Positions 933 through 15,893 of a stretch of 28,598 nt of DNA are shown here, in pieces; within the stretch, counting starts at the first letter, position 1, and each line of letters starts with the position of its first letter. The notes under the pieces were generated by a model. The model was given only the letters and a program-made list of their open reading frames with translations. It did no database searches and was not told the DNA's origin. The DNA is from Dehalococcoidales bacterium (GTDB lineage: Bacteria; Chloroflexota; Dehalococcoidia; Dehalococcoidales; RBG-16-60-22): positions 1 to 28,598 of the forward strand of contig JADHXF010000015.1 of the NCBI GenBank assembly GCA_016783105.1, in the 5' to 3' direction. Position numbers and translations under genes: made by a program.

Positions 933-957
933 GGAATAACCAGCAGGAGGCATAACG

Positions 958-1446
958 GTGGCTGATGAAGAAAAAGAACTGACCAACGAGCTTGAAGCGC
1001 TTCAGGGGGAACTGGAAAACCTGAAGCAAGAGAAAGAGGCGCTCAATCGTGAACTAGAGGCCAGAGCTGCAACCATGGGTGACCTTCAGGAAACACTGGC
1101 GGCCAGGGATACCGAGACTGTCGGCCTGAAGCAGACCATTGTCGAATCAGAAGGGAAACTGGCTCAAATAAATGATTCGCTGTCCCGGGCAGTGGCCAGC
1201 TATCGGGAACTGGTGGTGACGGCGCATCCGGAGGTACCGCCCGAACTTATAACTGGCGATTCGGTTGAAGTGATAGATGAATCCCTGCAAAGCGCCCAAG
1301 CACTGGTTGACAAGGTGAAACAGGGGATTGAGGCGGAGACGGCAAAAAGCAGAGTGCCGGCTGGAGCGCCACCGCGGGCACCGCTCGACCTGTCGGTTTT
1401 GTCTCCGCGGGAAAAGATTCAATACGCAATAGGAGGTAAGAGATAA
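958..1446 (+). CDS. coiled-coil scaffolding-like phage protein
   Basis: This is a 162-residue protein starting at GTG, preceded by a good ribosome site (GCAGGAGG, 944-951). The first 70 or so residues are a heptad-rich coiled coil dominated by Glu, Leu and Lys. The C-terminal third is Pro/Ala-rich, then ends in a short basic segment (SPREKIQYAIGGKR). Small, acidic, helical proteins placed between portal and capsid genes are usually scaffolding proteins, which guide capsid assembly through a basic C-terminal helix and are then lost. That function is inferred from position and composition. No protease domain or fusion is visible. Its stop directly abuts the capsid ATG at 1447, which suggests coupled translation. 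Confidence 0.6.
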   Translation: MADEEKELTNELEALQGELENLKQEKEALNRELEARAATMGDLQETLAARDTETVGLKQTIVESEGKLAQINDSLSRAVASYRELVVTAHPEVPPELITGDSVEVIDESLQSAQALVDKVKQGIEAETAKSRVPAGAPPRAPLDLSVLSPREKIQYAIGGKR

Positions 1447-2367: not shown

Positions 2368-2376
2368 AGAAACGGT

Positions 2377-2399
2377 GGGGGAGGGGACTACCCTCCCCC
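2377..2399 (+). terminator. GC-rich hairpin downstream of the capsid gene
   Basis: Left arm GGGGGAGGG (2377-2385) pairs perfectly with CCCTCCCCC (2391-2399) across a 5-nt loop. Only weak T content follows (CTATTAAAGG), so it is more likely a partial terminator or an mRNA-stabilising hairpin than a full stop. The ribosome site of the next gene starts about 8 nt downstream. A similar hairpin, arms reversed, occurs at 24838-24860. Confidence 0.5.
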
Positions 2400-2417
2400 T
2401 ATTAAAGGAGGTAAGAG

Positions 2418-2882
2418 ATGGTACTGGCAGTAATTGAGCATACGGAATATCCCTTTGCCAAGGGTGATCTGACCTCAGACGGCGTTCAGTGGTCGGCGGA
2501 GGTGGATACGACCACCCCAGACACCGATGTTGAGGTTGAGTGTGTCGCCATCAGGCCACCGGCGCTGGGTGAATTGATGGAGATCGAGTTCGGCCTGACG
2601 GCAGCATTACGGGCTGTGTCTTCAGCTACAGCTGACCTCACCTATAAGTGGCAGGGGAGGAACAAGGGTGGCACCTGGGTCGACCTGCACAGCGCGGTCA
2701 CCAAAGCCGATATCGGTACGAGCTATGTTGAGGAGACCCGTAGCGGCCGCTTCCAGATGGTCAGCAACTTTAATTCCCTGCCTTTTGAGGTGAGGCTGGT
2801 CATCCAGTGCAATGAGGCCAACGAAGGCCGGGCCAAAGTGAAGAACTCAAGTTATGTTCGGGTAAGATATTCTGCATCGTGA
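2418..2882 (+). CDS. small beta-rich virion protein, function unknown
   Basis: A 154-residue protein with an ATG start and an excellent ribosome site (AAAGGAGGTAAGAG immediately upstream). The sequence is rich in beta-strand-forming residues with alternating hydrophobic and polar positions (for instance VEVECVAIRPPALGELMEIEF and FEVRLVIQCNEA), and has no membrane segment or coiled coil. Its position right after the major capsid gene suggests a head decoration or head-fibre protein. No motif confirms this. It sits 8 nt ahead of the LamG protein gene, so the two are probably co-translated. Confidence 0.55.
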   Translation: MVLAVIEHTEYPFAKGDLTSDGVQWSAEVDTTTPDTDVEVECVAIRPPALGELMEIEFGLTAALRAVSSATADLTYKWQGRNKGGTWVDLHSAVTKADIGTSYVEETRSGRFQMVSNFNSLPFEVRLVIQCNEANEGRAKVKNSSYVRVRYSAS

Positions 2883-2890
2883 GGTGAGAG

Positions 2891-3532
2891 GTGAGTTTTA
2901 TTTATGACCCAAGTCTGGTTCTCTATGTGCCGTTGTACGAGGGGGACGGCACCTCTTTCGCATCAAGGGATGCCTATGGTCATGCCTGCGCGGTTACCGG
3001 CGCCCGGTGGCGACCCAGCGGGCATTACTTTGACGGTACTGACGACAGAATTGTAATCGCTCACCATTCGGCTTTTAACTTTGGCACCAATGACTTCAGC
3101 CTTGAAATCTGGATAAGGGCGTCTTCAAGCGGTGGCGCCATACAGCGCCTGATTTCCAAACAGTCGGCGGCGTGGTTTTTCTTCCGCCTTATCGGTGGAA
3201 AAGCGACCCTGTCCATCAAGGATGGCACTAATGAGCAGTCAGTAACCGGCTCAAGCGATTTAAGGGATGATATATGGCACCATCTTGCCGTAACCGTGGA
3301 CAGGGATAGTTCCACGGGGCTTATGCTGTCCGTTGACGGTGAAATCGATGTAGTCGATGATGCCACCGGTGTTGGTTCGATTTCTAATACCACCGATTTA
3401 CAGATTGCCAGGTTTTCAGGGGGGGCTGAGTATTTCAAGGGTGCTATCGGCGAAGCCAGAATGTACCGCAGGTTGCTGACACCACTAGAAATGAAGAACA
3501 ACTACATGGCTACGAAATGGAGGTACCGATGA
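2891..3532 (+). CDS. LamG/concanavalin-like lectin domain virion protein
   Basis: 213 residues from a GTG start; the ribosome site GAGGTGAGAGGTG overlaps the previous stop. Almost the whole length is one laminin-G/concanavalin A-like jelly roll. It shows the hallmark YFDGTDDRIVI near residue 50, NFGTNDFSLEIWIRA at 62-77, DDIWHHLAVTVDR near 126-138, MLSVDGEI near 145-152, and a final IGEARMYRRLLTPLEMKNNY typical of LamG_3 domains. Such domains bind glycans or proteins. In virions they act as decorations or adhesion modules. It sits among head genes, not with the tail genes, so capsid-surface display is the simplest inference. The stop overlaps the next start as ATGA (3529-3532). Confidence 0.75.
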   Translation: MSFIYDPSLVLYVPLYEGDGTSFASRDAYGHACAVTGARWRPSGHYFDGTDDRIVIAHHSAFNFGTNDFSLEIWIRASSSGGAIQRLISKQSAAWFFFRLIGGKATLSIKDGTNEQSVTGSSDLRDDIWHHLAVTVDRDSSTGLMLSVDGEIDVVDDATGVGSISNTTDLQIARFSGGAEYFKGAIGEARMYRRLLTPLEMKNNYMATKWRYR

Positions 3533-3756
3533 AGTATCGAGCAAGAATTGATTTGAGCTTTGACAGCGAGGCTGATGCCCGCTCATTGATGGACTATGCC
3601 AGGGAAGTAAGCGGTAAAGCCGTAAGCATCAACGAAGGCAGGGGCGATGAAGAGATTTCCTTCTGTGACCTGGAGCTCTGCCGCCATGACGAGGGCCTGC
3701 CCTGCACGAAGCTGGAAAGAGTGGAGGTCAAAAAGTCGGGGGTGATAACGTCATGA
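3529..3756 (+). CDS. small virion-locus protein, unknown
   Basis: A 75-residue protein. I chose the ATG at 3529 because it overlaps the LamG stop as ATGA and has GGAGG (3519-3523) at ideal spacing. The in-frame ATG at 3517 lies inside that ribosome site. The product starts MKYRARIDLSFDSEADARSLMDYA and alternates strands and helices (a possible ferredoxin-like beta-alpha-beta pattern). It contains two Cys (FCDLELCRHD). No family is recognised. It ends in another ATGA overlap with the next gene, showing tight translational coupling. Confidence 0.6.
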   Translation: MKYRARIDLSFDSEADARSLMDYAREVSGKAVSINEGRGDEEISFCDLELCRHDEGLPCTKLERVEVKKSGVITS

Positions 3757-4385
3757 ACCTGACTGACATGAGAACTGTTGTCCGCCGCGACCTCCATGAC
3801 GAAGATTCCAGCAACTACCGCTGGACCGATGATGAGATGAACCGGCACATTGCCCGTGCGGTAAAAGACTTATCTGAAAATCTGCCCTGTGAGCAGAAGG
3901 CAACCAAGGCTACCACTTCAGGCTCGCGGGAACTGGATATATCAAGCCTTTCCGACAGGGTATCGGTGGTGGCTGTTGAGTATCCCGTAGGCCAGTTCCC
4001 CAGGCGTTACCAGCGGTTCTCACTGTGGGAAGATACACTGACCATCCTGAGTGAGGAAATCCCAGACGGCTCCAGCGCGTATGTCTACTACGGGAAACTG
4101 CACATCCTTGACGCCAGCGGCTCCACCATCCCCGGCCAGTATGAAGACCTGGTTGCTGCCGGTGCCGCCGGCTATGCGGCCGTTGAGTGGGCCATCTTCG
4201 CGGTCAATCAGGTGAATGTCGGCGGGAGCGTTACGCCCGGTGAGTTCCTTGCCTGGGGCAGGGAAAGGCTGAGCGATTTCCGGAAGGAATTGAGGCGGCT
4301 GGGGAGGAGAAACCGGGTCAGGAACAGCACTCTGTATCGGCCATACTATCCAGCGGTCTCGAAGTCAACTGATTATGGTCCCTGA
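3753..4385 (+). CDS. head-tail adaptor-like phage protein
   Basis: 210 residues with an ATG overlapping the previous stop (ATGA). The N-terminus (NLTDMRTVVRRDLHDEDSSNYRWTDDEMNRHIARAV) matches the general pattern of phage adaptor proteins of the gp6/gp15 connector type, whose first helices read like 'R.DL.D.....WTDEEL...I..A'. The C-terminal half carries a YEDLVAAGAAGYAAVEWA helix and a basic tail (KELRRLGRRNRVRN). Adaptors dock below the portal and open the route to the tail. The assignment rests on the N-terminal pattern plus its position between head and tail genes. The stop lies 11 nt inside the longest form of the next gene. Confidence 0.6.
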   Translation: MNLTDMRTVVRRDLHDEDSSNYRWTDDEMNRHIARAVKDLSENLPCEQKATKATTSGSRELDISSLSDRVSVVAVEYPVGQFPRRYQRFSLWEDTLTILSEEIPDGSSAYVYYGKLHILDASGSTIPGQYEDLVAAGAAGYAAVEWAIFAVNQVNVGGSVTPGEFLAWGRERLSDFRKELRRLGRRNRVRNSTLYRPYYPAVSKSTDYGP

Positions 4386-4392
4386 GGCAGCC

Positions 4393-4713
4393 ATGGCAAA
4401 ACGAACGAAACGTACCAGAGAAAACCTGCCCCGCGAAGCGTTTGCCATCGTTGGGGACGCGGAGAATCCGGACACCTGGCGTTTACCGCACCACAAAAGA
4501 AGCATTATACGGGCTCTCAAGGGCGATTTGGATATCGAGCGAACCGTTGACTGGAGTCAGACCGCTGACGCCGTAAGCGCGCTGTCCCCGTTGAACATGG
4601 GCAAAAGAGTGCCTGCCGGCCCGGAAGAGATTCTTGGGGCGGCCATTCACCTGGCTGGACATTATCGAAAAGGAAATAAGTCGCTACCGGATATTCTGGC
4701 GGCACTGGTATAA
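4393..4713 (+). CDS. small phage-locus protein with AFA-x-VGD...LPHH motif
   Basis: 106 residues from the ATG at 4393 (a GTG-type start at 4375 would add six residues and overlap the previous gene; neither has a strong ribosome site, though CTGAGGCAG precedes 4393). After a basic start it reads LPREAFAIVGDAENPDTWRLPHH, a motif I associate with small uncharacterised proteins of tailed-phage genomes. The remainder is helical (ILGAAIHLAGHYRKGN near residues 77-92). I cannot name a function. Nucleic-acid binding or a closure role would both suit the basic N-terminus and the position just before the tail gene. Confidence 0.5.
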   Translation: MAKRTKRTRENLPREAFAIVGDAENPDTWRLPHHKRSIIRALKGDLDIERTVDWSQTADAVSALSPLNMGKRVPAGPEEILGAAIHLAGHYRKGNKSLPDILAALV

Positions 4714-4722
4714 GGAGAAAGA

Positions 4723-6729
4723 ATGCGAAATCTCTCGGCAGCACTGCTGGCCGCGCAGAAAAAGACTACGGCGACGCCGTACGTTAAGGTGGAGGTCAGC
4801 AATAAAAATTCCGGTGTGGTGAGGCTTGACTGGGCCAGGCTGTACACCGGTTCCGAGGATGATTATTACCATGCCGTGACCATGCCCGGTGATGGCTCTC
4901 TCATACGCGTCAGGGCGACTCTGCCCGGTGACTCTCGCAAGCTTTACCGGCAGCGGGTGCCTGACCCCGGCCCGTCAAGCGACTTCAGCCAGTGGACATA
5001 TACTAATCAGCTCAATGCCGCTGCCGTCGCCTGCGTTTCGCTGGGGGCAGAGGTCTCCATTTGCTGGATAGATGGCGTCAACCGCAAGATCCAGCGTATA
5101 AAAAGCACCGATTATGGTGTGAGCTGGGGCAGTCCGGAGGTCATTGATTACTGCCCGACAATCAATATCGGCGGCCTGGCGGCGGCATATAAACCAAACG
5201 GTGACCTGGCAATATTCTTTGCTGACCAGGCGACGCTCTACGTCAAAAAGAACGTCAGCGGCCAGTGGCAGCCGCGCTCCAGTTGGAACAAAAGCACCGG
5301 AGACCTGTCCGGTATCGCCGCTGTCTATGAAAACGACTGGAACCTGCTCATCACCGGCAAGGATTCGTCGGGCAATTTCAAAGTGTGGTCACTCATTTAC
5401 GGCGATGGCGGTGATGTCTCAGCAGGAAACTGGTCGACTTTAAAGGAACTGGCCTCAGCGCCATCGAGCGGTGAATTTGAGTACCTTCAGCCATTTCTGG
5501 ATAAACTGGATGTTTACCGTTGTTTCTTTGTGGAGAAGTTTACCGGCAGCCAGTCGTACAACCGTCCTTTCTGGTCGCATACGGTACTGGACGCCGAGTT
5601 CATCGATAATCTGTGGCGGGAACCGGTGCCGTTCAATCTGTCATCGGCATACGGTCTGGCCATGGCTCACCACGGGGACTACGGCTGGCTTTCCTGCCCC
5701 GCAGGCGTGTGGCGTGCCAAATCGACTGTTCAGAACCTTGACCTGACTGCCGATGTGCTGGTGGTGCGGCAGGAAATAGAAGAGGCATCGGGCAAAATTA
5801 CCGTGGAGCTGAGAAACGACCAGGGGCAGTACGTTTCGGTGGGGCAGGGGGAGCTCTCCGTCCTTGCCATCGGCTGCCAGCTGGAGTTCAGCCCCGGCTA
5901 CCGGACGGAAAGCGGCGACGAGCTAAGTGCCGGGCAGGCTTACTGCCTTGAAGGGTACGAACATACCAGTGCCGGTGGCTCGGCCAGCCTCATATTACAT
6001 GCCCGGGATGGCTGGGAGGCCATCGCCGACTGGAGGGCCAGGCACCAGTTCCGCTGGAACCGGGACTCAGAGGAGATGAGCGTCAAGGATATTCTCGCCT
6101 TTGTCCTGGCCCGGGTGGGGCTGAAGCTCGAAGTGAAGTCGCAGTCATCGGTCATCACCGGTTTTTACCCTGACTTCACCATCAATTCCGGCAACCCTGG
6201 GGAAACAGTGCTCCGAAAACTGCTCTCCTTTGTTCCTGACGTGTTATTTGTTGAAGGCGCGACTGCCGGCATGGTGAATCCCCAGGCGTCAGACAGTTCC
6301 GTGTACAGCTACGGAGGGGAACACTCGGTTCTGGAAGGAAGATACCATCAGGGAGCCTGGGAGCTTAACCGCATCCAGGTGGAGGGCTATGATACCGTCA
6401 GTGATGAGACGATCGTGGTCGACCGCTTTAGCTGGGGCGAGATAGAAAGACTGTATGATAGGTTGAGGCAGCTGGAAGATAAAAATATCGATACTGTGGC
6501 CAAAGCACAGGGACGCGGTGATGCTTATTTAAGACAGGCGGAGGTAGCGTCGGCCAGCGGCACCATACTGGTACCGGTCAACTGCGGCCAGCAACTCTAT
6601 GACGTTATTGACATCACGGACATTCGTGCCGGGCTCGGTGCGGCCAAGCGGCGGGTGCTTGGCTCTGTTCTCGTTTACAGTCCCCGCCGTGGCGAATACC
6701 GCCAGCGTTTGCATCTGGGGGCAGTGTAA
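4723..6729 (+). CDS. large tail protein: beta-propeller plus tail-hub-like region
   Basis: 668 residues from an ATG with an AAGGAG ribosome site (4711-4716). The N-terminal half looks like a sialidase-type beta-propeller. There is a perfect Asp-box (S-x-D-x-G-x-x-W, STDYGVSW, residues 128-135) and repeated strand-turn units such as NWNLLITGKDSSG and GDYGWLSC, but no catalytic sialidase Arg triad I can point to. From about residue 345 onward the sequence (EIEEASGKITVELRNDQGQY, a helix at DGWEAIADWRARHQF, and a C-terminal KAQGRGDAYLRQAEVAS with LYDVIDITD) resembles phage tail-hub/baseplate proteins of the gp27 or gpD kind. The natural reading is a tail-tip protein with a receptor- or glycan-binding propeller. 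The OB-fold gene next to it supports a baseplate site. No tape-measure gene precedes it. Confidence 0.6.
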   Translation: MRNLSAALLAAQKKTTATPYVKVEVSNKNSGVVRLDWARLYTGSEDDYYHAVTMPGDGSLIRVRATLPGDSRKLYRQRVPDPGPSSDFSQWTYTNQLNAAAVACVSLGAEVSICWIDGVNRKIQRIKSTDYGVSWGSPEVIDYCPTINIGGLAAAYKPNGDLAIFFADQATLYVKKNVSGQWQPRSSWNKSTGDLSGIAAVYENDWNLLITGKDSSGNFKVWSLIYGDGGDVSAGNWSTLKELASAPSSGEFEYLQPFLDKLDVYRCFFVEKFTGSQSYNRPFWSHTVLDAEFIDNLWREPVPFNLSSAYGLAMAHHGDYGWLSCPAGVWRAKSTVQNLDLTADVLVVRQEIEEASGKITVELRNDQGQYVSVGQGELSVLAIGCQLEFSPGYRTESGDELSAGQAYCLEGYEHTSAGGSASLILHARDGWEAIADWRARHQFRWNRDSEEMSVKDILAFVLARVGLKLEVKSQSSVITGFYPDFTINSGNPGETVLRKLLSFVPDVLFVEGATAGMVNPQASDSSVYSYGGEHSVLEGRYHQGAWELNRIQVEGYDTVSDETIVVDRFSWGEIERLYDRLRQLEDKNIDTVAKAQGRGDAYLRQAEVASASGTILVPVNCGQQLYDVIDITDIRAGLGAAKRRVLGSVLVYSPRRGEYRQRLHLGAV

Positions 6730-6752
6730 ATAAATAGAGAGGGATGAGTTAA

Positions 6753-6968
6753 GTGAGCTTGAGGAAAGGCATTCTGAAGAGTTTTAATTCCAGTAATTAC
6801 ACGGCGACCGTGCAGCTGGCTGGCAGCTATAAAGCCTATCTGGAGGACATCACCGTGGCCCGCAACCTGCCCGGTGGTGAAATGACCATCGGCAGGGAGG
6901 TGGCGGTCATCTTCTTTGACGAACATAATCCCAGAGAGGCAGTGGTGATTGCGGTCTATACTCAGTGA
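6753..6968 (+). CDS. small OB-fold baseplate/spike-like protein
   Basis: 71 residues from a GTG start, with GAGAGGGATG about 10 nt upstream. The pattern KGILKSFNSSNYTATVQLAGSYKAYLEDITVARNLPGGEMTIGREVAVIFFDEHNPREAVVIAVY is that of the small five-stranded OB fold found at the base of phage tail spikes (gp5/gpV/VgrG-like). These plug the tail tube beneath the hub protein, and here it directly follows the hub-like gene. It lacks the beta-helix needle of a full gpV. It is the last + strand gene of the virion block and converges with the signal peptidase gene, 26 nt away. Confidence 0.55.
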   Translation: MSLRKGILKSFNSSNYTATVQLAGSYKAYLEDITVARNLPGGEMTIGREVAVIFFDEHNPREAVVIAVYTQ

Positions 6969-6994: not shown

Positions 6995-7930
6995 TTACCC
7001 CGCTCCGAAGACGTCTCGTCCCACCCCGGCAGGCTGTTTGCTTCTCACACAGCCCGGAGGGTATTTCCCCTTTGCCGGTGCCGGCGCCGCTGGCTTCTCT
7101 GGAGGCAGCGTCTCTTCGGTGAATGACCTTCTCTGCTGCAGGGCTTCCACGATGCTTTCGAGGGCCTTGTTCTGCTCGGCAGCACCCCGTTTGAGTTCGT
7201 GAGATGCTTCGGCAAGACCCTGGATAGCGCTGGTGTGGCTTCTCAGGTGCCCGGCATATTCCGTCATGGCGGAAGCGAAGCTGCTCAGCGCTTCCTGTGT
7301 CTGGGCCATAACTTTCTCGGTGCCGTTAATCCGCTGGCTCAGCGTCTCGGTATCGCGCAGGGTCTCTTGAATAACCGGCGCAAATATGCCGCGATGTATC
7401 TTCTGCCCGCCGCGGCTGATGTCAGTGGCGTAGAGATAGAGGGCAAAAAGAGTCAGGGCGATGGCGACGAACATCAGTCCCTGCTGGCTCTGCACGAAGA
7501 GGAAGGGGAAACCCAGGAGAGGAATCTGGTTGCTTACCGTACCCCGCAGGTCCTGGGCGCGAACCGTGAACGGGTCCTCGCCGGAATTATCACCTTTGGT
7601 GCGCCAGGCAATACCGAATTGAGTATCGCGCACGTCAATCACCCGGTGGGCGACGACCGGCGGGTAGTTGTAGAAATCCTGGATTGCCGACGGTACGTTA
7701 TAGACAATAATGTCACCAACTTTAACATCTGCCGGGCTCTTGTCTTTAATCAGGATGAGGTTGCCGGCGTGGAGTTCAGGCTCCATGCTGGTGCCGAAGA
7801 CAGGCAAAAACGGCATAGCGCCCCGTACCGCCATGAAGGCGGTGAGGCATAGCGCCACTACGGTAACGAGCGTGAGCGCCCGCTTGTAGCGGAATGACCT
7901 GGTTAAGATTACTGCTAAAAATCCCCTCAT
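6995..7930 (-). CDS. sipW: SipW-like type I signal peptidase with C-terminal coiled coil
   Basis: 311 residues. The first ~170 form a type I signal peptidase of the ER/SipW (S26B) type, which uses Ser-His instead of Ser-Lys. An N-terminal membrane helix (about 18-36) leads to the catalytic Ser48 in FGTSMEP, His95 in VVAHRV, and Asp114 in TKGDNS, followed by a second membrane helix (about 151-168). SipW enzymes cleave a special class of signal peptides carried by TasA, camelysin and relatives. Four such proteins are encoded just upstream. Unlike ordinary SipW (about 190 residues) this one continues with a helical coiled-coil segment (about 185-268) and a Pro/Ala-rich tail, predicted to lie in the cytoplasm. 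Its promoter region carries a four-unit 11-bp repeat array. The ATG has no strong ribosome site, so the start is moderately certain. Confidence 0.85.
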   Translation of the reverse strand: MRGFLAVILTRSFRYKRALTLVTVVALCLTAFMAVRGAMPFLPVFGTSMEPELHAGNLILIKDKSPADVKVGDIIVYNVPSAIQDFYNYPPVVAHRVIDVRDTQFGIAWRTKGDNSGEDPFTVRAQDLRGTVSNQIPLLGFPFLFVQSQQGLMFVAIALTLFALYLYATDISRGGQKIHRGIFAPVIQETLRDTETLSQRINGTEKVMAQTQEALSSFASAMTEYAGHLRSHTSAIQGLAEASHELKRGAAEQNKALESIVEALQQRRSFTEETLPPEKPAAPAPAKGKYPPGCVRSKQPAGVGRDVFGAG

Positions 7931-7961
7931 TGCGCCTTTTATCCTGTTTCGTTCTAATATA

Positions 7962-8037
7962 AATGTAACACACAGGTATAAAGATTGGCGTAAAAAACAT
8001 AAAGATTTCGTTAAGGTTCCGTTAAACTTTCGTAAAT
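7962..8037 (-). promoter_or_regulatory. sipW promoter with four tandem 11-bp repeats (OmpR-type box)
   Basis: Read on the - strand, four 11-nt units follow head to tail: ATTTACGAAAG (8037-8027), TTTAACGGAAC (8026-8016), CTTAACGAAAT (8015-8005) and CTTTATGTTTT (8004-7994). ACG recurs every 11 nt in the first three. Three bases further on is a poor -35 (CGCCAA, 7990-7985), then 17 nt, then an extended -10 (TGT-TACATT, hexamer 7967-7962). Tandem 11-bp repeats touching a weak -35 are the classical site for OmpR/PhoB-family activators. The same layout precedes the gene at 12563-13348. Binding by the OmpR-type regulator encoded here is inferred. Confidence 0.7.
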
Positions 8038-8051
8038 AAACGGAATTTACC

Positions 8052-9101
8052 CTATCGCTGCTCGGCCTCGCAATACAGTTCCGGGGTCACCGTCCACCCC
8101 GCCTCCCATTCCGAAACCTCGCGGGAAAAGAGCTGGTAGGTACCACCGGTAACCGAAAGTGTATAGCTGCCGCCGCTGATATCCACCAAATTAAAGATGG
8201 CCATGCCGTTCTGCAGGTTCAGCAGCTGGTAGCTGGGCGTTTCACCGGCCTCCACTGAGCTTTCAAGGTACAGATACATGCCCAGGCTGTCGTACGCCTT
8301 CAGCAGGTCATCGGTATTGGTAAGATAGACTCTCACCTGGAGGTTGCCGTCATAATCATCGTTGACGGTGATTTCAAAAAGGTCACCGGTTGGTGTGTTG
8401 CCATTGAGCTCGGGGGCATCAAAATTGACGCTGGTGTAAACCTGCGTGCACAGTGAATCTATGGCCACCCCTCCCTCTCTCAACCCGACGCCACTCTGTA
8501 AATTATCAATTTCGTTCCAGGTCCAGGGGCTGCCGCTTTGCGGGTTATCGCCCCAGGAATTGGAATATTCAGCATAGCTGGTGGTCAGGTTTTCCGAGGC
8601 GCCATTGTACTCAAAGCCGTTGGTCTTGATGTGAACATAAGCTGACTCTTGCGTGATATTGGCGGACGTCCGCGATACCATGAAAACCTCAACGTAGTTA
8701 ATATCTCCCCCCGCCGTCTGCGTGGTGTGATTGGCGGTATCGTATAAATCCTCTTCCCAGGCTAGTGATGGGGTGTAAACGTAGGTGGTATCATCATCAG
8801 CAGTGGTCTCGTCCACTTTATCCCAGTGTTCCCCTGAATCCGGGTACTGGTATTTAATAACAGTCTCGTCACCGGCACCGACGGGTCTGTAAATTATGTC
8901 TTCGTTCGCCGTCGTTAAAACATCATTCCAGTCTGGCTGAGTTTCCGTGGCATTGACGGTGGCAATATCCCCGGTTGGCGTGGGCGTACCGATTGTCCCG
9001 GTAGCCGTGGTGTACGTATAGGCGTATATCCCGCTACTGATGATGATGAGGGCGGCGGCGATGATAAGAAAGAATTTCTTGTTCAGCCTATTCGTTTCCA
9101 T
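8052..9101 (-). CDS. secreted TasA/camelysin-like protein with inserted jelly-roll module (paralogue 4)
   Basis: 349 residues. The N-terminus has a basic stretch, a hydrophobic helix (about 10-27) and SGIYAYTYTTATGTIG, the pattern of SipW-dependent signal peptides, with expected cleavage after Ala27. The core found in all four paralogues lies at 238-310: GDLFEIT, GNLQVRVYLTN, then LLNLQNGMAIF. Between the N-terminal strand and that core sits an extra module (about 76-227), with AYVHIKTNG and NPQSGSPWTW near 154-194, which recurs in the 640-residue neighbour. The protein ends W-x-x-x-x-x-x-Y-C-E-A-E-Q-R. It is probably a surface-assembled subunit processed by the downstream SipW. The start has no clear ribosome site. 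Coupled expression with the gene 32 nt upstream is likely. Confidence 0.75.
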   Translation of the reverse strand: METNRLNKKFFLIIAAALIIISSGIYAYTYTTATGTIGTPTPTGDIATVNATETQPDWNDVLTTANEDIIYRPVGAGDETVIKYQYPDSGEHWDKVDETTADDDTTYVYTPSLAWEEDLYDTANHTTQTAGGDINYVEVFMVSRTSANITQESAYVHIKTNGFEYNGASENLTTSYAEYSNSWGDNPQSGSPWTWNEIDNLQSGVGLREGGVAIDSLCTQVYTSVNFDAPELNGNTPTGDLFEITVNDDYDGNLQVRVYLTNTDDLLKAYDSLGMYLYLESSVEAGETPSYQLLNLQNGMAIFNLVDISGGSYTLSVTGGTYQLFSREVSEWEAGWTVTPELYCEAEQR

Positions 9102-9133
9102 GCGTTATTATTCAGGTTAATAAGTTTGCGCCG

Positions 9134-11056
9134 TTACCGCTGGGTGGCCTCACAGTAAAACTCGGGGGTGGCGGTCCATCCCGCCGCCCACTCCGAGGTG
9201 TTATCCGAAATCAGGCAGTAGCCGCCGCCAATAATCTCCACCTTGTAGCTTGATAGCGCCACGGTGTAGGTGATGGTAACATCACTCAGCTTTGGCGTGT
9301 CATCGCCGGGTCCGGAGAAGGAGGCCTGGTACTGCAGCCAGCGGTAACCATCGTGGACGGAGTTGATGGCCGTGCCAGTCGTTATGTAGTAATCGCCGGT
9401 ACCGGTCGGGCCATACCAGGTTGCCGAGCTGAGACCTCCTTCTGTTGAGGCCGACCTCAACAGAAACTTGATATCTGTTCCGGAAGGCTCATTGATGGTG
9501 AAGTAAATGACCTGCCAGTCCCAGTTGCCGTAATCCCCGCCATCGTGGGTGGAGGAAGTGAGTGTTCCCGATGCGTAATATGAAGAAAAGTAGACTCTTA
9601 TCTCATCCAGCACCGGCGTATCACTGCCGTCAGAGGTAAACTCTGTGAGGTAGTAGAAATTTGACCCGGTCCAGTTCAGGCTGGAGAGGCTGATGGTGGC
9701 CGAGCCCTGCGATAGCGTGTCCCAGCCATCGAGCGTGCCCGCCGAATTGTACCAGGTGGTGTTATCGGTGGAAAACTGTGCTCTCAGGCCGGTTGCGGCC
9801 GGAATCGCCGAGGCATTGTAATAGAAGTCATCAATGCTGGCCACATTGGCACTGGCCAGCAGATTTGTGGAGGTAATGGTGCCCCGTGCATAGTAGGTAA
9901 GCGGGGTGTAGTTGACCTCGGCATAGACCTGGGTGACTCGTGACCATTGATTTGCTTTGCATCTTATAAGACCAATGCCGATTTGCAGGTCGTCAATTTC
10001 GCTCCAGGTCCACGGGTTGCCGGTCTGGGGGTTGTTATTCCACTGGTAGGAATAAGTGGCGTAGCTGGTGGTGAAATATTCTGTAGTTCCATTATGTTCG
10101 GCACCGTTGGTTTTAATGTGGACATACGCGTTGACAGGAAGTTCTGAATTCTCTTCCTTGCCCACCATATATACTCTAACGTAATTGATGGCGCCCTGGC
10201 CGGTGGTATGATTGCCGATGTTGTACAGGTCCTCCTGAAATTGCCAGTCTTCTGTAGAAACGTAGGTGCTGTCACCATCAGAGGTAACATCGTCCACTTT
10301 ATCCCAGTGGGCACCGGTCAGCACAGGAAACTGGTCATCAATGACGGTCTCATCGCCGGCGGCATTTGGCCTCAGGGTCTCGCTGGCGGGAGTACCACTG
10401 GAGAAATCAAGTTTGACCTGACCGCCAGAAATTGTAACATTGGCCGCGGAGGCAACCTTGGACTGGTCATCAAAGCTGTCGGTGACGTTATCGGTGAACT
10501 TCTCAATTAATACATCTCCGGGGCTGGTGGTGGTGTCAAGCTGGCTTAAGGTGCCGCCCTCAAAGTCGGCCTGGGTCGTCTGGACCCAGCTTTTTGCCGA
10601 GGAGGCGAGGCCGGCCAGAGAGAAATTTGCTTTTCCGTTCTGCATGGAAAGGACCTGGTAATCCGGTGTCTTTCCCGCTTCCTCCGAGCCCTCAAGGTAT
10701 AGTTTCATATTGACGTACTTGTAGGCCCGGGTTAAGTTGGCGGCATTGGTCAGGTAAATGCCCACCTGTACGTCGCCGGTATAGGCGGCATTGGGGGTTA
10801 TATCAAACAAATCACCTGCGGGTACTTCCCCACAGGTGGTATTTTCCGAGAGATTATCGGTGACCGAACTCCAGTCGGGCTGACCTGTTGAGACATTGCA
10901 GGTGGCAACGTCAGTCGAGGGCTCGCCGACGCTAACGGTCCCGATGGCAGTGGTATACGTATAGGCAAAGGCCCCGCCACTGAGTATCAGGACAAGGCCC
11001 AGCGCCACGAGCAAATAAAATTTCCTTTTGGTGTTTCTTTCCCACTGCTTGGTCAT
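9134..11056 (-). CDS. large multidomain secreted TasA/camelysin-like protein (paralogue 3)
   Basis: 640 residues. A SipW-type signal peptide (hydrophobic about 13-30, GGAFAYTYTTAIG, cleavage after Ala31) is followed by the family core at 80-150 (GDLFDIT, GDVQVGIYLTN, LSMQNGKANF). The core is then interrupted by about 450 residues: a WVQTTQADFEGG stretch (157-168), the jelly-roll module also present in the 349-residue paralogue (about 233-384), and two related beta-sandwich repeats (about 389-492 and 494-598), each starting YA-x-GT-x-TS and ending near a TP-x-L-D/S-x-I/V. The core resumes with YKVEIIGGGYC (604-614) and the common ending WTATPEFYCEATQR. Five Cys are present, more than in the small paralogues. 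It is likely the big adhesive or capping subunit of the fibre. Start ATG at 11056; the ribosome site is weak. Confidence 0.75.
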   Translation of the reverse strand: MTKQWERNTKRKFYLLVALGLVLILSGGAFAYTYTTAIGTVSVGEPSTDVATCNVSTGQPDWSSVTDNLSENTTCGEVPAGDLFDITPNAAYTGDVQVGIYLTNAANLTRAYKYVNMKLYLEGSEEAGKTPDYQVLSMQNGKANFSLAGLASSAKSWVQTTQADFEGGTLSQLDTTTSPGDVLIEKFTDNVTDSFDDQSKVASAANVTISGGQVKLDFSSGTPASETLRPNAAGDETVIDDQFPVLTGAHWDKVDDVTSDGDSTYVSTEDWQFQEDLYNIGNHTTGQGAINYVRVYMVGKEENSELPVNAYVHIKTNGAEHNGTTEYFTTSYATYSYQWNNNPQTGNPWTWSEIDDLQIGIGLIRCKANQWSRVTQVYAEVNYTPLTYYARGTITSTNLLASANVASIDDFYYNASAIPAATGLRAQFSTDNTTWYNSAGTLDGWDTLSQGSATISLSSLNWTGSNFYYLTEFTSDGSDTPVLDEIRVYFSSYYASGTLTSSTHDGGDYGNWDWQVIYFTINEPSGTDIKFLLRSASTEGGLSSATWYGPTGTGDYYITTGTAINSVHDGYRWLQYQASFSGPGDDTPKLSDVTITYTVALSSYKVEIIGGGYCLISDNTSEWAAGWTATPEFYCEATQR

Positions 11057-11086
11057 TCATGCCCATATTTTGGTATTTCTTTAATT

Positions 11087-11614
11087 TTACCTCTGGGTTA
11101 TTTCACACCATATCTGCGGCTGGTAGCTGCCGCCAGTTAATGACTTAAACGGGTGCAGCCGGTACCCACCGCCGGTGAGCGCTATTTTGTAAGGGGGGGT
11201 GCCGGTGAGGTTCTCCCATGTAAACAGAACCTGGCCGTTCTGCAGGTTGAGAACCTGGACGATTCCCTGTTCATCAACCGTGCTGTTGGTGCTGTCCTGA
11301 AACTCAAGCATCATGTTGACGTGCTGGTATTGCCGTACCAGCTGCCCGGTATTGATCATATATACGGTTACCACCAAGTCACCGGTGTAGTTTTCCGTCG
11401 GCGTGATGTCGAATATTGTGCTCGACGGCCAGGTGCCGGTAAATTTGCCGAAAACGGTCGGTGCGGTTATGCTGGAGCCCGCCGTGATATTGGCAAAGTC
11501 AGATGTCGGTGCGGTAACGCCGATGGTGGCGGTGGCGGTGGTAAAGGTATAGGCGAACATGCCACCGGTTACTACTAGCAATGCCACTAACGCGATCAGC
11601 AGTATTTTCTTCAT
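11087..11614 (-). CDS. small TasA/camelysin-like subunit (paralogue 2)
   Basis: 175 residues, the simplest form of the family and therefore the best guide to its core. A strong ribosome site (AGGAGGCATAAAA) precedes the ATG. The signal peptide is MKKILLIALVALLVVTGGMFA, the SipW-class pattern, with cleavage expected after Ala21, leaving YTFTTATATIGV at the new N-terminus. The core follows: IFDIT at 67-71, GDLVVTVYMIN at 78-88, VLNLQNGQVLF at 121-131, then TGGGYRL and a C-terminal IWCEITQR with the only Cys at 170. TasA-type fibres join by donating the N-terminal strand to the next subunit (established for Bacillus TasA). By analogy this would be the main fibre protein. That role is inference. 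Confidence 0.8.
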   Translation of the reverse strand: MKKILLIALVALLVVTGGMFAYTFTTATATIGVTAPTSDFANITAGSSITAPTVFGKFTGTWPSSTIFDITPTENYTGDLVVTVYMINTGQLVRQYQHVNMMLEFQDSTNSTVDEQGIVQVLNLQNGQVLFTWENLTGTPPYKIALTGGGYRLHPFKSLTGGSYQPQIWCEITQR

Positions 11615-11736
11615 TTTTATGCCTCCTCTTCATGACAGTTGGTGCTTACTTTGCTCAAATTTTACCAATTGTCATAATATCTGTCAACTTATAGCCAGTT
11701 ACCATTTTTACTGTATCAGTACTGTTCTTTTTCCCT

Positions 11737-11773
11737 GTTTCGTGGCTGCCTCCAGGCGAGGCAACCCCGAAAC
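11737..11773 (-). repeat. long hairpin between paralogues 1 and 2
   Basis: Arms GTTTCG...TGCCTC and GAGGCA...CGAAAC pair over about 17 positions (one G-T wobble and one mismatch) around a 5-nt loop. In the - strand transcript it is followed by A-rich sequence, not by a T run, so it is not a typical intrinsic terminator. It may protect or separate mRNA segments between the two subunit genes. Confidence 0.5.
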
Positions 11774-11796
11774 TGAGCGAGTCACCTGCTTCTTCA

Positions 11797-12384
11797 TTAC
11801 AGACCAGCCTGGATCACTTCGCAGGTAAGTGAGGGAGCCCATGACCCGGAACCATCAACGCCCGATAAGTAAGCCCAGGGGAATGCCCGGTGGACACCAC
11901 CCGTCACCTGAACATAGAAGTCTGTGCCGGCGGTGAAATTAGAAGAGGTAGAAACAAAGCTCACTACGCCGTTTTGCAGGGTGAGTGGTTTGGTTATTCC
12001 CTCTACATCCAGAAAATTGCCGGCATTATCTGCAATTTTTATGTTCATCAGGATCATCCCGTACTTGTAACTCAGCTGGTCGAGGTTGCTGAGGTAGACG
12101 TTTATTTCCAGGTCACCGGGATAATCGGAATCGGGTGTTATATTAAAGAGGTTACCGGCCTCTATGGCACCCCGGTAGCTTCCGAGCGCCGCGTAAGTAG
12201 GAACAGTCATGTTGGCGGTGACGTCGGCGAAGCTAGCCGTAGCAGGTGTGACGTCTAGGCTGGTGGAGGTGGTCGTGTACGCATAGGCAAACATGCCACC
12301 GGTAACCACCAGCGATGCCGCCAGAGCGATGATGAAATAGCGTCTCAGTTTGCTTCCCATGATTTCCTTAACTAAGTTGTTCAT
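11797..12384 (-). CDS. TasA/camelysin-like subunit (paralogue 1)
   Basis: 195 residues from the ATG at 12384, chosen because AAAGGAGG sits 7 nt upstream; an earlier in-frame ATG at 12435 lacks such a site. The N-terminus is a SipW-type signal peptide with LVVTGGMFAYAYTTTS, cleavage expected after Ala33. The family core is clear: GNLFNIT, GDLEINVYLSN, then LTLQNGVVSF. The ending (WAPSLTCEVIQAGL) keeps the Cys-Glu-x-x-Gln tail but has AGL in place of the final Arg, making it the most divergent of the four. Its single Cys is residue 188. It leads the block of four secreted genes, so it may be the accessory or first-assembled subunit. Expression is probably from the regulator promoter upstream or a local one not visible to me. 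Confidence 0.75.
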   Translation of the reverse strand: MNNLVKEIMGSKLRRYFIIALAASLVVTGGMFAYAYTTTSTSLDVTPATASFADVTANMTVPTYAALGSYRGAIEAGNLFNITPDSDYPGDLEINVYLSNLDQLSYKYGMILMNIKIADNAGNFLDVEGITKPLTLQNGVVSFVSTSSNFTAGTDFYVQVTGGVHRAFPWAYLSGVDGSGSWAPSLTCEVIQAGL

Positions 12385-12562
12385 TTTGTTTCCTCCTTTT
12401 GCTTGATTGACAATTTTAATTGATTCTTTTGACATATTGCTGACATTTCCTCGGGTGGTAGGTTTTCCTCTCCGCTCTTTCTTTTAGGGATTCCTACCAT
12501 CTTTAATAATGTCTGCTTCCCTGGTCGATTTCACATTGGATCACCCCCCTGTTTCTGCTTGT

Positions 12563-13348
12563 TTAACTTATATCTCCGCTGAGGAATTTGAAGCGTTCTT
12601 TCAGGCTTTCCTTGAAAGCGGTAAATTCCTCTTTGGTAATGTATTCGGTGCCCGGTTTACCGGTGAAACTGACCCTTGATATTGTCGGCAGACTGCTCTG
12701 TGCCACCTCAATCAGCATCAACTTCTGGTCGTTAACGACCAGTTTGTAATGGACAGACTGGAGCCGGTTGTCCAGTGTCTCATCATTGATGCCCAGTGTA
12801 CCGGCCGTCTGTTCTCTCGTGTTGCCATCAGCGATCTGGTGCAGGATTTCCGCCTCGTGAGTGGTGAGATGGGCCAGCAGTTTCCCAACCTCCTCGCCGA
12901 GTGAGGAGAAAGCGGTAAAATCATCCAGAATCCGGGAGGCAATTTCCGGTTTCCAGATGGCCTCGCTTATCGGTTGTTTGCCCTTTACGGCTTCCCGTAT
13001 TGAATTGACGACGACCTCAGGGTCGACGTCCTTGGTGAAGCAGGTACTGGCCCCGCTTTTCAGCGCTTCAAAGAGCTGTCCTTCGTTATAATTATCCATG
13101 ACCAGGATAACGGATACTTCCGGCAGAATCTGTTTAATCTGGCGCGTGGCATCAAAACCATTTACCTTATCATGGCTGGCGTTCAGAATGGCTACCTGTG
13201 GTGGATTGGCTTCAATAAAATCAAGTGCCTGCTCGTTGCCTACGTCCTCGCCAATCACTTCCATATCTTCCTCACCGGACAGGGTGAAGTGAATGCCTTC
13301 GCGGAAGAGCACTTGCCAGTCTGCCAGGAACACAGTTATCTTTTCCAT
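12563..13348 (-). CDS. LuxR/NarL-type regulator with degenerate receiver domain
   Basis: 261 residues. An N-terminal receiver-like domain (about 1-122) is followed by a LuxR-type helix-turn-helix (about 160-212; LTTHEAEILHQIADGNTREQ) and an unusual 45-residue C-terminal extension (TISRVSFTGKPGTEYI and onward). The receiver lacks key residues. The phospho-acceptor position, Asp in NarL-type proteins, is Asn56 (VAILNAS). The acidic pair is reduced to Ala9-Asp10. The switch Ser/Thr is Met84. The Lys is kept (Lys106, CFTKD). It should not be phosphorylated in the normal way and may respond to another ligand or partner. It sits between the two-component pair and the secreted subunit genes, under a promoter matching that of sipW, so it is the likely direct regulator of the subunit genes. 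Confidence 0.85.
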   Translation of the reverse strand: MEKITVFLADWQVLFREGIHFTLSGEEDMEVIGEDVGNEQALDFIEANPPQVAILNASHDKVNGFDATRQIKQILPEVSVILVMDNYNEGQLFEALKSGASTCFTKDVDPEVVVNSIREAVKGKQPISEAIWKPEIASRILDDFTAFSSLGEEVGKLLAHLTTHEAEILHQIADGNTREQTAGTLGINDETLDNRLQSVHYKLVVNDQKLMLIEVAQSSLPTISRVSFTGKPGTEYITKEEFTAFKESLKERFKFLSGDIS

Positions 13349-13387
13349 TCTCAGTTCCTCTAAAGCTGCGATGATTGCTACGTTTTT

Positions 13388-13463
13388 AATCTAACATGCG
13401 GGCATAAAGAGAGGCATAAAAAAAATAAAGATTTCGTAAAGGTTCCGTTAAAGTTTCGTAAAG
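13388..13463 (-). promoter_or_regulatory. regulator promoter with four tandem 11-bp repeats (OmpR-type box)
   Basis: On the - strand the units are CTTTACGAAAC (13463-13453), TTTAACGGAAC (13452-13442), CTTTACGAAAT (13441-13431) and CTTTATTTTTT (13430-13420). ACG recurs at exactly 11 nt. A poor -35 (TGCCTC, 13416-13411), 17 nt, and an extended -10 (TGT-TAGATT, hexamer 13393-13388) follow. Unit order, unit spacing and distance to the -10 equal those upstream of sipW, so both probably answer to the same activator. Confidence 0.7.
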
Positions 13464-13505
13464 AATGGCGTGCGGTATGATGAGTAGTGAAATTTATGGG
13501 AAAGG

Positions 13506-13525
13506 CTCTGGATGTCCGGCCAGAG
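13506..13525 (-). repeat. short hairpin after the OmpR-type regulator gene
   Basis: Arms CTCTGG and CCAGAG pair (6 bp, 8-nt loop) just beyond the regulator's stop. The following - strand sequence is CCTTTCCC, with no real T run. It could weakly end the two-component transcript ahead of the next promoter. The call is low confidence. Confidence 0.25.
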
Positions 13526-13526
13526 G

Positions 13527-14219
13527 TCAGGCGGGACTGATAAATTTGTAGCCCATACCGTGCTCGGTAACGATGATGCGGGGTGACTCAACGTTATCAC
13601 CGAGCTTTTGCCGCAGGTGCTGGATGTGTACCCGGAGCAGGTCTCTGGCGTCACGATATGCTTCGCCGCAGGCTTTGGCGAGCAGGTTTTCATGGGAAAG
13701 CAAACGCCCTTCGTTCTTGATGAGATAGTAGAGCAATTTGTATTCCGTGGAGGTAAGCTTCACCGGCTTGCCGTCAATCTTGACTTCATTGCGGTTAAAG
13801 TCTACCTGCAATTTCCCACCGGTGTAGGGCTGTTCCTCAGCCGGATCGGACCCACCCACGGCGCGGCGCATTACCGCCTGCACCCGGGCCAGCAGTTCAA
13901 TGTGGCTGAAGGGCTTGGTAACATAGTCATCGGCGCCCAGTTCAAGTCCCTTGGCGATGTCCGTGTCCTCGCTCTTCACGGTAAGCATTATTACCGGCAC
14001 CTGAGAGAAGCGCCGTATCTCGCGGAGTACCTGGAAGCCGTCCATATCGGGCAGCCCGATATCAAGTATGACCAGATCAGGGTTTTCCTTCTCGACAAGC
14101 TCCAGCCCCTTGCTGCCATCATTGGCGGGAGACACCGTGGCGTTGCCCCACCGTAGCTGGAAGCACAGTGTCACTACCTCTATTATTTCCGGAGAATCAT
14201 CAATAACTACTATTTTCAT
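13527..14219 (-). CDS. OmpR/PhoB-family response regulator
   Basis: 230 residues with a complete two-domain layout. The receiver (1-120) has the acidic pair Asp7-Asp8, the phospho-acceptor Asp53 (VILDIGLPDMDG), switch Thr80 (IMLTVKSE) and Lys102 (DDYVTKPF). A winged-helix DNA-binding domain follows (about 130-228), with LTSTEYKLLYYLIKN, LLRVHIQHLRQKLG and a final HGMGYKF. It is the natural partner of the histidine kinase 17 nt upstream in the same operon. OmpR-family dimers bind 11-bp direct repeats, and two such arrays lie in this cluster, one immediately downstream of this gene. It therefore probably activates both the pseudo-receiver regulator and sipW. Confidence 0.93.
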   Translation of the reverse strand: MKIVVIDDSPEIIEVVTLCFQLRWGNATVSPANDGSKGLELVEKENPDLVILDIGLPDMDGFQVLREIRRFSQVPVIMLTVKSEDTDIAKGLELGADDYVTKPFSHIELLARVQAVMRRAVGGSDPAEEQPYTGGKLQVDFNRNEVKIDGKPVKLTSTEYKLLYYLIKNEGRLLSHENLLAKACGEAYRDARDLLRVHIQHLRQKLGDNVESPRIIVTEHGMGYKFISPA

Positions 14220-14236
14220 CCGTACAACCCCTGTAC

Positions 14237-14947
14237 TTATCTCCCGTTGGATAGCGGTAGGGAGAAGCTAACGCGACTGCCCTTTCCCAGCGTACTCTCC
14301 AGCCAGACCTTACCGCCGTGAAGTTGTACCAGGAACTTGGTAATGGCCAGCCCCAGTCCGCTTCCTTTGCCCCCGTTAACCTGGTAATAGGGTTGAAAGA
14401 CCAGGCCCTGCTTGTTAGTCGGAATGCCCATGCCGTTATCAACCACCTCAATCATAAGGTTGGAGTCATTGCTGGTGGCGCTCACCGTTATGTTCCCTCC
14501 CTCTGGAGTGAACTTGCTGGCATTGGTGAGCAGGTTCAACAGTATCTGTTCCAGGTAATGGCGGTGGGCCCTGATATGAGGTAGTGTGGCGGGCAAATCA
14601 ACGTGTAAAGTCTGTTTCTTGCTGTGCGTGATTGGATAAATCTGGGAGGTAACGCCATGAATGACCGGTCCAATCTCAAGCAGTTCTGGTTGAAAGGAGA
14701 ACTCTCCGGAAAGTAGCCCGGCCATTTCCGAGAAGTTGGTCAGCTTTTCATCAAGGCTGTGCGCATTGCGAATGATATTCTGGATAAGCCTTAGCGGCAT
14801 ACTTTTATGGTCTGACTGAAGCTCTTCGGCTAGAAGTTCCGCAGAAACAATGATAGCGGTAAGCAGCGTTCTCAGCTCGTGAACGGTAGCATCGCCAAAG
14901 CCAATCTTTTGACTTCTCCTGTTATTAACGTGTTTCAGGCTTTCCAT
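14237..14947 (-). CDS. soluble histidine kinase without sensor domain
   Basis: 236 residues consisting only of the kinase core. The dimerisation/phospho-acceptor region has His23 in VHELRTLLTAI (the usual Pro of HELRTP is Leu here). The ATP-binding domain has the N box Asn138/Asn142 (LNLLTNASKF), G1 DNGMGI (170-175), and G2 KGSGLGLAI (194-202). There are no membrane helices, HAMP or PAS domains, so it is cytoplasmic and must take its signal through a partner. The XRE-domain protein encoded 51 nt upstream, or the coiled-coil tail of the signal peptidase, are possible partners by context only. Its first 20 residues are short and basic. It lies 17 nt before its cognate regulator gene. Confidence 0.9.
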   Translation of the reverse strand: MESLKHVNNRRSQKIGFGDATVHELRTLLTAIIVSAELLAEELQSDHKSMPLRLIQNIIRNAHSLDEKLTNFSEMAGLLSGEFSFQPELLEIGPVIHGVTSQIYPITHSKKQTLHVDLPATLPHIRAHRHYLEQILLNLLTNASKFTPEGGNITVSATSNDSNLMIEVVDNGMGIPTNKQGLVFQPYYQVNGGKGSGLGLAITKFLVQLHGGKVWLESTLGKGSRVSFSLPLSNGR

Positions 14948-14998
14948 GGTCTAACCGCCGGCAGGTCCATTGATTATTATAGTATTTTCGGTAGGGTA

Positions 14999-15394
14999 TC
15001 ACTCGTTTGCTTTACTCATTCCCTTGGCAATGAGTTTTACCGTGTTTAGAATGCCAATGACCGCCCGTTGAATCTCAACTGGCTCTTCCGCTAACAACTT
15101 GGCCACATACGGGTCCAGGCGTCGGTTGCCGTAAGTTGCACTTTTCTCTTCAGCTACTCCGGAAGTCTGTGGCGACAGAAAGCCGGCGAGGGTAAAGAGT
15201 TCATCCTCGTCAAAGCCAAGCGGCTTGGCGATTCTGCGCAGGATGTGAGCTGAAGGAAAGCGCTCGCCCCTTTCAATACGTCCCAGATGAGAGGAAGACA
15301 CGCTCGAAGTAGTGGCAAGTTCCTGAAGAGTCAGCGGAATGGCGATTCTCTGCTGCTTTATTATTCTGCCAAGATCATTATTTACTCGTGACAT
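14999..15394 (-). CDS. XRE-family helix-turn-helix regulator
   Basis: 131 residues. An N-terminal XRE-type HTH (about 8-65) contains IKQQRIAIPLTLQELA, the recognition region SSVSSSHLGRIERGERFPS, and LRRIAKPLGFDEDELFTLAGF. The C-terminal half (about 80-131) is helical and carries no known ligand domain. The ATG has a good ribosome site (GGAGG, about 10 nt upstream). It heads the - strand block, 51 nt before the histidine kinase gene, and its promoter overlaps three related 10-bp sites. Autorepression is thus likely. It may gate expression of the two-component pair. Confidence 0.85.
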   Translation of the reverse strand: MSRVNNDLGRIIKQQRIAIPLTLQELATTSSVSSSHLGRIERGERFPSAHILRRIAKPLGFDEDELFTLAGFLSPQTSGVAEEKSATYGNRRLDPYVAKLLAEEPVEIQRAVIGILNTVKLIAKGMSKANE

Positions 15395-15417: not shown

Positions 15418-15446
15418 ATTCTAATTCGCCAAATGGCAAATGTCAA
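15418..15446 (-). promoter_or_regulatory. promoter of the XRE-kinase-regulator operon
   Basis: On the - strand, TTGACA (15446-15441), 17 nt, TAGAAT (15423-15418): a near-consensus housekeeping promoter about 25 nt ahead of the XRE start codon. The -35 overlaps the candidate operators at 15428-15472. Confidence 0.7.
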
Positions 15447-15704: not shown

Positions 15705-15893
15705 TTGGCCGAGGTAGTGGCAGGCGATAACGAGAGCTTTGAAAGTTTGCTCAAGCGGTTCAACCGCCGGGTCCAGCAAACCGGCATTTTATCGGAAGTA
15801 CGCCGTCGGGAGCACTATGAAAAGCCAAGCGTCAGGCGCAAACGTAAAAGAGCGGTCAGAAGACGCAGTGTCGCCAGAGAAACGAGAAGATAA
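15705..15893 (+). CDS. rpsU: ribosomal protein bS21
   Basis: 62 residues, the normal length for bS21, a small very basic protein of the 30S subunit near the anti-Shine-Dalgarno region. The typical pattern is visible: an acidic start, then [33 protein letters not shown], and a tail almost entirely of Arg and Lys. The start is a TTG at 15705. The only nearby ATGs (15694, 15697) are out of frame, and the strong ribosome site AAGGAGG (15688-15694) suits the TTG. The pairing with yqeY 18 nt downstream is a common bacterial arrangement. Confidence 0.93.

Follow-up and report, generated by a model that had tools for sequence, protein, structure and literature searches.

Two described systems lie closest to the gene cassette considered here. 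The first is that of the cannula proteins CanA and CanX, from Pyrodictium abyssi, together with the tube protein Hyper2 (PDB 7uii, 9dlo, 9hdi, 9h8b and 9bab). PMC13140500 describes cannulae as exclusive to Pyrodictiaceae and links them to DUF58/DUF447 proteins; PMC12326000 states that CanA has no sequence homologues in the database, and that N-truncated K1-CanA fails to polymerise. The second comprises the tapA-sipW-tasA and camelysin operons, which combine secreted jelly-roll subunits with a dedicated signal peptidase and an XRE-type regulator, SinR in the case of Bacillus (PMC9674648). The cassette lies in a 28,598-nucleotide contig of a Dehalococcoidales bacterium (JADHXF010000015.1, the whole of which is called the window), where nine co-directional genes occupy 6995..15394 on the minus strand (open reading frame (ORF) coordinates; domains by Pfam and NCBIfam; Table 1).

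This block is more than a relative of TasA: it is a bacterial cassette, conserved across genomes, that encodes CanA-fold surface proteins along with the means to process and control them; we infer the polymer, its shape and the signalling route. The genes probably form a dedicated set under their own regulation, which in Dehalococcoidia assembles CanA-fold jelly-roll subunits into an extracellular protein filament or tube. This explanation draws on the conserved gene order, four paralogous secreted subunits with a common core, the predicted CanA fold together with weak sequence kinship, a tailed peptidase and a near-private promoter element. If correct, the assembly and switching-on of such polymers could be studied in a second, non-hyperthermophilic setting, in a CanA-fold family of bacteria that brings its own processing enzyme and regulatory circuit. 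The open-licence literature searched contained no report of cannulae in bacteria or of gene transfer agents in Chloroflexota.

Table 1. Features of the window, with strand and the evidence for each assignment (aa, amino acids; bp, base pairs).
Feature	Coordinates	Strand	Evidence
XRE-family regulator	14999..15394	-	Pfam HTH_31/HTH_3; orthologues head the cassette in relatives
Soluble histidine kinase	14237..14947	-	HisKA + HATPase_c; alignment A4
OmpR-family response regulator	13527..14219	-	Response_reg + Trans_reg_C
LuxR-type regulator with pseudo-receiver	12563..13348	-	Response_reg, weak GerE; phosphoacceptor Asp absent
195-aa core subunit	11797..12384	-	Alignment A5; ORF extends to 12435
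175-aa core subunit, CanA-like fold	11087..11614	-	Predicted structure and relatives
640-aa subunit	9134..11056	-	Shared core interrupted by inserted modules
349-aa subunit	8052..9101	-	CanA-like core with inserted carbohydrate-binding-module-like domain
Archaeal-type signal peptidase (S26), coiled-coil-like cytosolic tail	6995..7930	-	TIGR02228, 80.2 bits; alignment A3
Three direct repeats of 11 bp (13430-13462), with promoter-like sequence downstream, ahead of luxR	13388..13462	-	Score 30/33, 0/200 shuffles
Three 11-bp direct repeats before peptidase gene	8004..8036	-	Score 28/33, 0/200 shuffles
TTGACA...TAGAAT promoter-like site with palindrome TTTGCCATTTGGCGAA in spacer, candidate XRE operator	15418..15446	-	Pattern search
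Intergenic region with stable hairpin and TTGACA-17-TAAAAT site (11659-11687)	11615..11796	-	Folding
Portal, scaffold-like, HK97-type capsid, adaptor, 668-aa protein and further genes	3..6955	+	PHROGs, SU10_adaptor, synteny; convergent with cassette

Cassette conservation and subunit fold

The initial annotation had described a nine-gene minus-strand block with four paralogous secreted proteins, and both points stand: all nine genes were recovered at their positions with the domains described, and the paralogy is evident from BLASTP (175-aa protein versus 212-aa ORF, E = 3e-40; 349-aa versus 640-aa protein, E = 6e-48). The 212-aa ORF probably starts at 12384, giving 195 residues, because orthologues begin there (alignment A5). 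One core is common to all four subunits and is split by inserted modules in the 640-aa protein; the two short, core-only paralogues are strongly conserved in their N-terminal segment and at the C-terminus. Of 561 candidates, 269 are related to the 175-aa protein at E ≤ 0.001, and those named among the best 120 listed belong to Dehalococcoidia, Dehalococcoidales, Chloroflexota and one 'subsurface metagenome'. The subunits were ruled out as known phage cargo, since none of 147 pattern stretches on viral contigs was confirmed as encoding a close relative of the 175-aa subunit and phage records contained no match to the subunits.

A scan of genome contigs yielded 50 pattern stretches, from which 12 loci were confirmed, and 20 further regions were annotated. 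A comparison across genomes, for which the initial annotation had called, revealed that the order xre-kinase-OmpR-LuxR-subunits-peptidase recurs in relatives with either four or two subunits. Complete nine-gene, four-subunit sets occur in the window, L001 and L005, and L002, L003, L004, L006 and L077 are consistent with this set up to the contig end. A short form, which has a single core subunit together with one of the 349-aa type, was found complete in L008, L010, L067, L068 and L069; L012 has the same arrangement, except that its contig ends within the peptidase gene. Among the looser or partial variants are L066, L071, L073, L078, L079 and L080. A subunit match was found in 27 of the 156 genomes of the order of G001, where all candidates were scored. 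In the class and phylum samples at most eight first-look candidates were scored per genome, so that misses are possible; matches were found in 6/393 genomes of the class (G001 and G008 among them) and in 5/400 of the phylum, where all but G001 were weak and partial (E 1.9e-5 to 3.6e-4) and were not counted.

Predicted structures of the 175-aa and 349-aa proteins revealed the CanA jelly-roll fold, with the CanA family clearly ahead in both models and the predicted core resembling the cannula proteins over most of its length. The structural alignments correspond to 9-16% identity. Profile searches recovered CanA at weak values (E = 0.0071 with A6, 0.071 with A5 and 0.58, in third place, with A8), and CanA was the sole one of the compared families, CanA versus TasA/bundling pilus, to be found by sequence, with A6. 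A search of PDB sequences with the close-relative alignment A1 returned only noise. The likeness to CanA and CanX extends to small, secreted, paralogous subunits and to an N-terminal segment that may bridge them. Unlike CanA and CanX, the window system is bacterial, pairs its subunits with a tailed signal peptidase of their own, with two-component genes and with a pseudo-receiver, has long paralogues with inserted domains and is known here from genes and predicted folds.

The block had been proposed to be a SipW/TasA-like surface system. The conserved, self-contained cassette, the paralogous secreted subunits and the dedicated peptidase were borne out, whereas the TasA and SipW profiles were not, and CanA is nearer in fold. 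PF12389 (camelysin) matched none of the four window subunits at E ≤ 10. TIGR04088 (SipW-type signal) had no match at E ≤ 10 in the two short subunits and the first 50 residues of the long ones, and none at E ≤ 0.01 in the full-length proteins; the peptidase, archaeal-type by TIGR02228, falls short of the SipW cut-off (see below). The window cassette also differs from the tapA-sipW-tasA and camelysin operons in containing two-component genes and a pseudo-LuxR regulator. The CanA match might instead reflect a fold common to donor-strand jelly rolls, in which case the proteins would form solid fibres, like those of TasA or archaeal bundling pili, or a sheath, and not hollow tubes. This is unlikely given the missing PF12389 and TIGR04088 matches, the clear lead of CanA in both models and its recovery, alone, by sequence.

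Camelysin-type proteins do occur in genomes of the same order, apart from the CanA-fold cassette (L063, G279:C4; L062 and L065, G005:C67). An L063 protein matches PF12389 at 2e-6, and two match TIGR04088 at 0.0082 and 0.00084. In a genome search with PF12389, for which the B. subtilis control was positive, matches at E ≤ 1 were found in 3/11 genomes (G003, G005 and G279), away from the cassette.

Two further kinds of subunit were observed. In short cassettes (L010:8401-9201, L012:4905-5645, L019, L034, L049-L052 and L054-L056), a core subunit carries an extra N-terminal, presumably cytosolic domain ahead of its membrane segment. We presume this domain to resemble a beta-grasp (ThiS/ubiquitin-like) domain; a Pfam search with the L010 protein returned nothing above cut-off. 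Distant solo subunits of 168-177 aa lie near CheY/OmpR-type genes in L036, L043, L047, L048, L059 and L061; in the regions viewed, none of them has a labelled peptidase next to it.

Signal peptidase and its conserved tail

The peptidase scored 80.2 bits against TIGR02228 (archaeal-type signal peptidase I), above the curated cut-off of 51.85, and 53.3 bits against NF046067 (Bacillus SipW), below the cut-off of 190. Residues Ser48 and His95, which we take to be catalytic, are conserved in alignment A3. In addition to the catalytic part, the protein has a second hydrophobic helix followed by a conserved tail, which would be cytosolic under the expected topology. All eight rows of the alignment share the tail motif SHTSAIQ without change, and 6/7 complete rows have a PGC motif close to the C-terminus. 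Similar tails are found in the divergent loci L035, L044 and L060.

The tail also occurs apart from the peptidase. In G467 (L112), a protein consists of two hydrophobic helices and the tail without the catalytic part, and no subunit lies between its gene and luxR. In L113, L114 and L115 the tail stands behind a different N-terminal domain, identified as GAF in L114 (E = 1.5e-11). The peptidase alignment found matches at E ≤ 1e-10 in 43 of the 156 order genomes; matches of ≤ 4.9e-49 over at least 70% of the model were confined to 20 genomes, 19 of which are also subunit-positive, G467 being the exception. As the tail is conserved, is found on other N-terminal domains including GAF and tracks the subunits, it is likely a signalling domain, and may provide the input for the sensorless kinase. 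As such, it offers a sharply defined and testable example in which a signal peptidase would serve as sensor.

In L113-L115, the place of the CanA-fold subunits beside related regulators and the tail protein is taken by three small secreted proteins of other kinds, which suggests that the cargo of the cassette is exchangeable.

Regulators, promoter elements and a proposed mechanism

Pfam and NCBIfam searches found no sensor domain in the histidine kinase. The receiver of the LuxR-type regulator is degenerate, as first proposed: the phosphoacceptor position is Asn in 14, Ser in 7, Gly in 1 and Asp in none of 22 distinct loci (23 rows, of which L106 repeats L010). The variant cassette of L078 (G046:C11) encodes a kinase of 766 aa, additional degenerate receivers and a small, presumably ribbon-helix-helix-like regulator whose C-terminal tail is LuxR-like.

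Three OmpR-type 11-bp direct repeats were found upstream of luxR in 17/18 loci scored, each at 0/200 shuffles. The exception, L003, is due to an over-extended ORF, and the element is present there (31/33); with L112-L115 (25 to 30/33), 22/22 loci carry it. The repeats precede the peptidase gene in 5/19 upstream regions, all from four-subunit loci. None of 14 kinase, 16 ompR, 37 core-subunit and 26 long-subunit upstream regions reached an equal score, 3/12 xre regions had an intermediate one, and borderline repeats were found before some core subunits (L009, L079 and L085; 21/33, 3 to 5 of 200 shuffles). In L009 (9773-10555; G008:C79) a second, solo core subunit was observed behind such weak repeats (21/33, 3/200 shuffles). 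A search of 12 whole genomes, allowing up to three mismatches, returned 14 matches, and none with the reversed control: eight before luxR, five before the peptidase gene or at its position and one elsewhere (G005), so that 13/14 lie in the cassette. Judged by these sequence patterns, regulation looks dedicated to the cassette.

The palindrome pattern of the candidate XRE operator has 25 matches in 14/15 genomes, 12 of them just upstream of xre, compared with one for the reversed control. In 20/20 cassettes examined, a count that leaves out the variants L078 (7 bp) and L080 (none), the first subunit gene is followed by a hairpin with a stem of 9 to 17 bp (folding z of -6.1 to 0.1); gaps ahead of that gene also contain stems, of 7 to 9 bp. 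A TTGACA-17-TAnnnT site precedes the 175-aa gene in 5/8 four-subunit loci. In the leader before the first subunit (window 12436-12562), a TGGTAGG...CCTACCA pairing was observed, likewise in L004 and L077.

In the proposed mechanism, the peptidase would trim the subunits after a conserved GGxFAY signal, freeing an N-terminal segment that may insert into the next subunit. The 195-aa and 175-aa proteins would form the shaft, and the 349-aa and 640-aa proteins would be decorated subunits whose inserted domains may bind surfaces or sugars. The XRE regulator would govern its own promoter, while the kinase and OmpR regulator would turn on transcription of luxR and the subunits, and of the peptidase; the LuxR pseudo-receiver would work without phosphorylation. 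The cytosolic tail of the peptidase may supply the missing sensor input of the soluble kinase, such that secretion load would feed back on expression.

Several points weigh against this explanation. A common jelly roll proves neither polymerisation nor a hollow tube, and the support for a filament or tube comes from genes and predicted folds. The E values for CanA are weak, A8 ranks it third, and it was not recovered by profiles A1, A7 and A9, the last two being those of the 349-aa family; Foldseek's own top 50 for the 349-aa model contained carbohydrate-binding-module-like folds, with CanA absent. The usual regulators are missing immediately upstream in L071 and L073, only a subunit and peptidase are seen in L079 and L080, and 8 of the 27 subunit-positive genomes have no tailed-peptidase match, several of them with early contig ends. 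The links between kinase and regulator and between tail and kinase are proposals. Three of the 12 genomes searched lack any 11-bp pattern match, and the consensus was derived from the very promoters under test, which renders the shuffle test partly circular, the genome-wide specificity less so.

Neighbouring phage-type head cluster and remaining alternatives

The genes convergent with the cassette encode a phage-type head cluster. An ordinary prophage was rejected as the sole account of window 3-6955, because many genomes have the same cluster in conserved surroundings. Of the order genomes, 84/156 encode the capsid protein, with matches mostly full-length at 60-95% identity, the others being partial and a few remote (32-37%), and the cluster is mostly single copy. 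Capsid dN/dS (ratio of non-synonymous to synonymous substitution rates) against the window was 0.05-0.13 in 10 pairs, and capsid distances track those of luxR (r 0.95) and ompR (r 0.82) in eight genomes. Twenty capsid-positive regions (L120-L139) were viewed, from genomes picked for having no cassette there (in G279, a different contig carries a variant cassette). The head genes lie together in these, with portal labelled in 19/20 (in L131 the contig ends first), the 668-aa gene in 18/20 and the terminase large subunit in 6/20; an xre homologue occurs in four, directly beside the head cluster in three.

Among the phage records listed, the best match to the capsid protein had 39% identity, and all 265 records were below 60%. 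In IMG/VR, 166 stretches encode capsid relatives, and none of the 80 kept lies on a contig longer than 12.7 kb, which would be expected had pieces of chromosome been filed as viruses. The cluster resembles gene transfer agents (RcGTA, BaGTA and BhGTA) in its conserved phage-type head genes, signs of vertical inheritance and purifying selection; compared with these, it is known from genes alone, with ORFs labelled only by similarity to the genes of this analysis. These gene-level features point to a domesticated head module and candidate gene transfer agent, and raise the question of an undescribed gene-transfer-agent-like element in Dehalococcoidales. The two gene-transfer-agent reviews that were searched for Chloroflexota and Dehalococcoidia mention neither.

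The cassette might itself serve this cluster, perhaps by providing an element of the gene-transfer-agent kind with a structure for reception, anchoring or delivery. Among the 21 loci whose sequence continues past a full-length tailed peptidase, 15 have the 668-aa gene and the peptidase gene tail to tail (window, L001, L002, L005, L008, L010, L011, L067, L068, L069, L070, L075, L077, L116 and L117), tail-only proteins adjoin head genes in 4/4 loci (L112-L115), and the correlation of capsid and luxR distances would fit as well. Such service is nevertheless very unlikely, as 6/21 loci are not adjacent (L071, L073, L078, L079, L080 and L111), most capsid-positive genomes are without subunits (84 versus 27 of 156), G391 retains the cassette with its capsid gene seemingly lost, and the 12-genome search did not find the 11-bp pattern upstream of head genes. 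It is highly improbable that the secreted proteins are separate, non-polymerising surface adhesins, as the carbohydrate-binding-like insert of the 349-aa protein might suggest, given the two core-only paralogues with their conserved ends and a cannula fold that belongs to polymer subunits.

Alongside the favoured filament or tube, a wider and quite unlikely picture is that of a widespread domesticated phage-head element of Dehalococcoidales, coupled in some lineages to a bacterial cannula system, in which CanA-fold tubes with sugar-binding side domains would be released by a signal peptidase that doubles as sensor of a built-in two-component circuit. Capsids and tubes would then form a cell-contact and DNA-exchange apparatus.

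In G391 (L067:2451-4673), one open frame fuses portal and 668-aa sequence; the capsid genes therefore seem to have been deleted there, or the contig is misassembled. Around the cassette, yqeY, purL, rSAM, NYN and gatC are found in relatives as in the window; taken with the named relatives of the 175-aa protein, this synteny makes a Dehalococcoidia origin of the contig most likely. Between xre and yqeY, at window 15705-15893 on the plus strand, lies a short frame with a TTG start, which we presume to resemble ribosomal protein S21.

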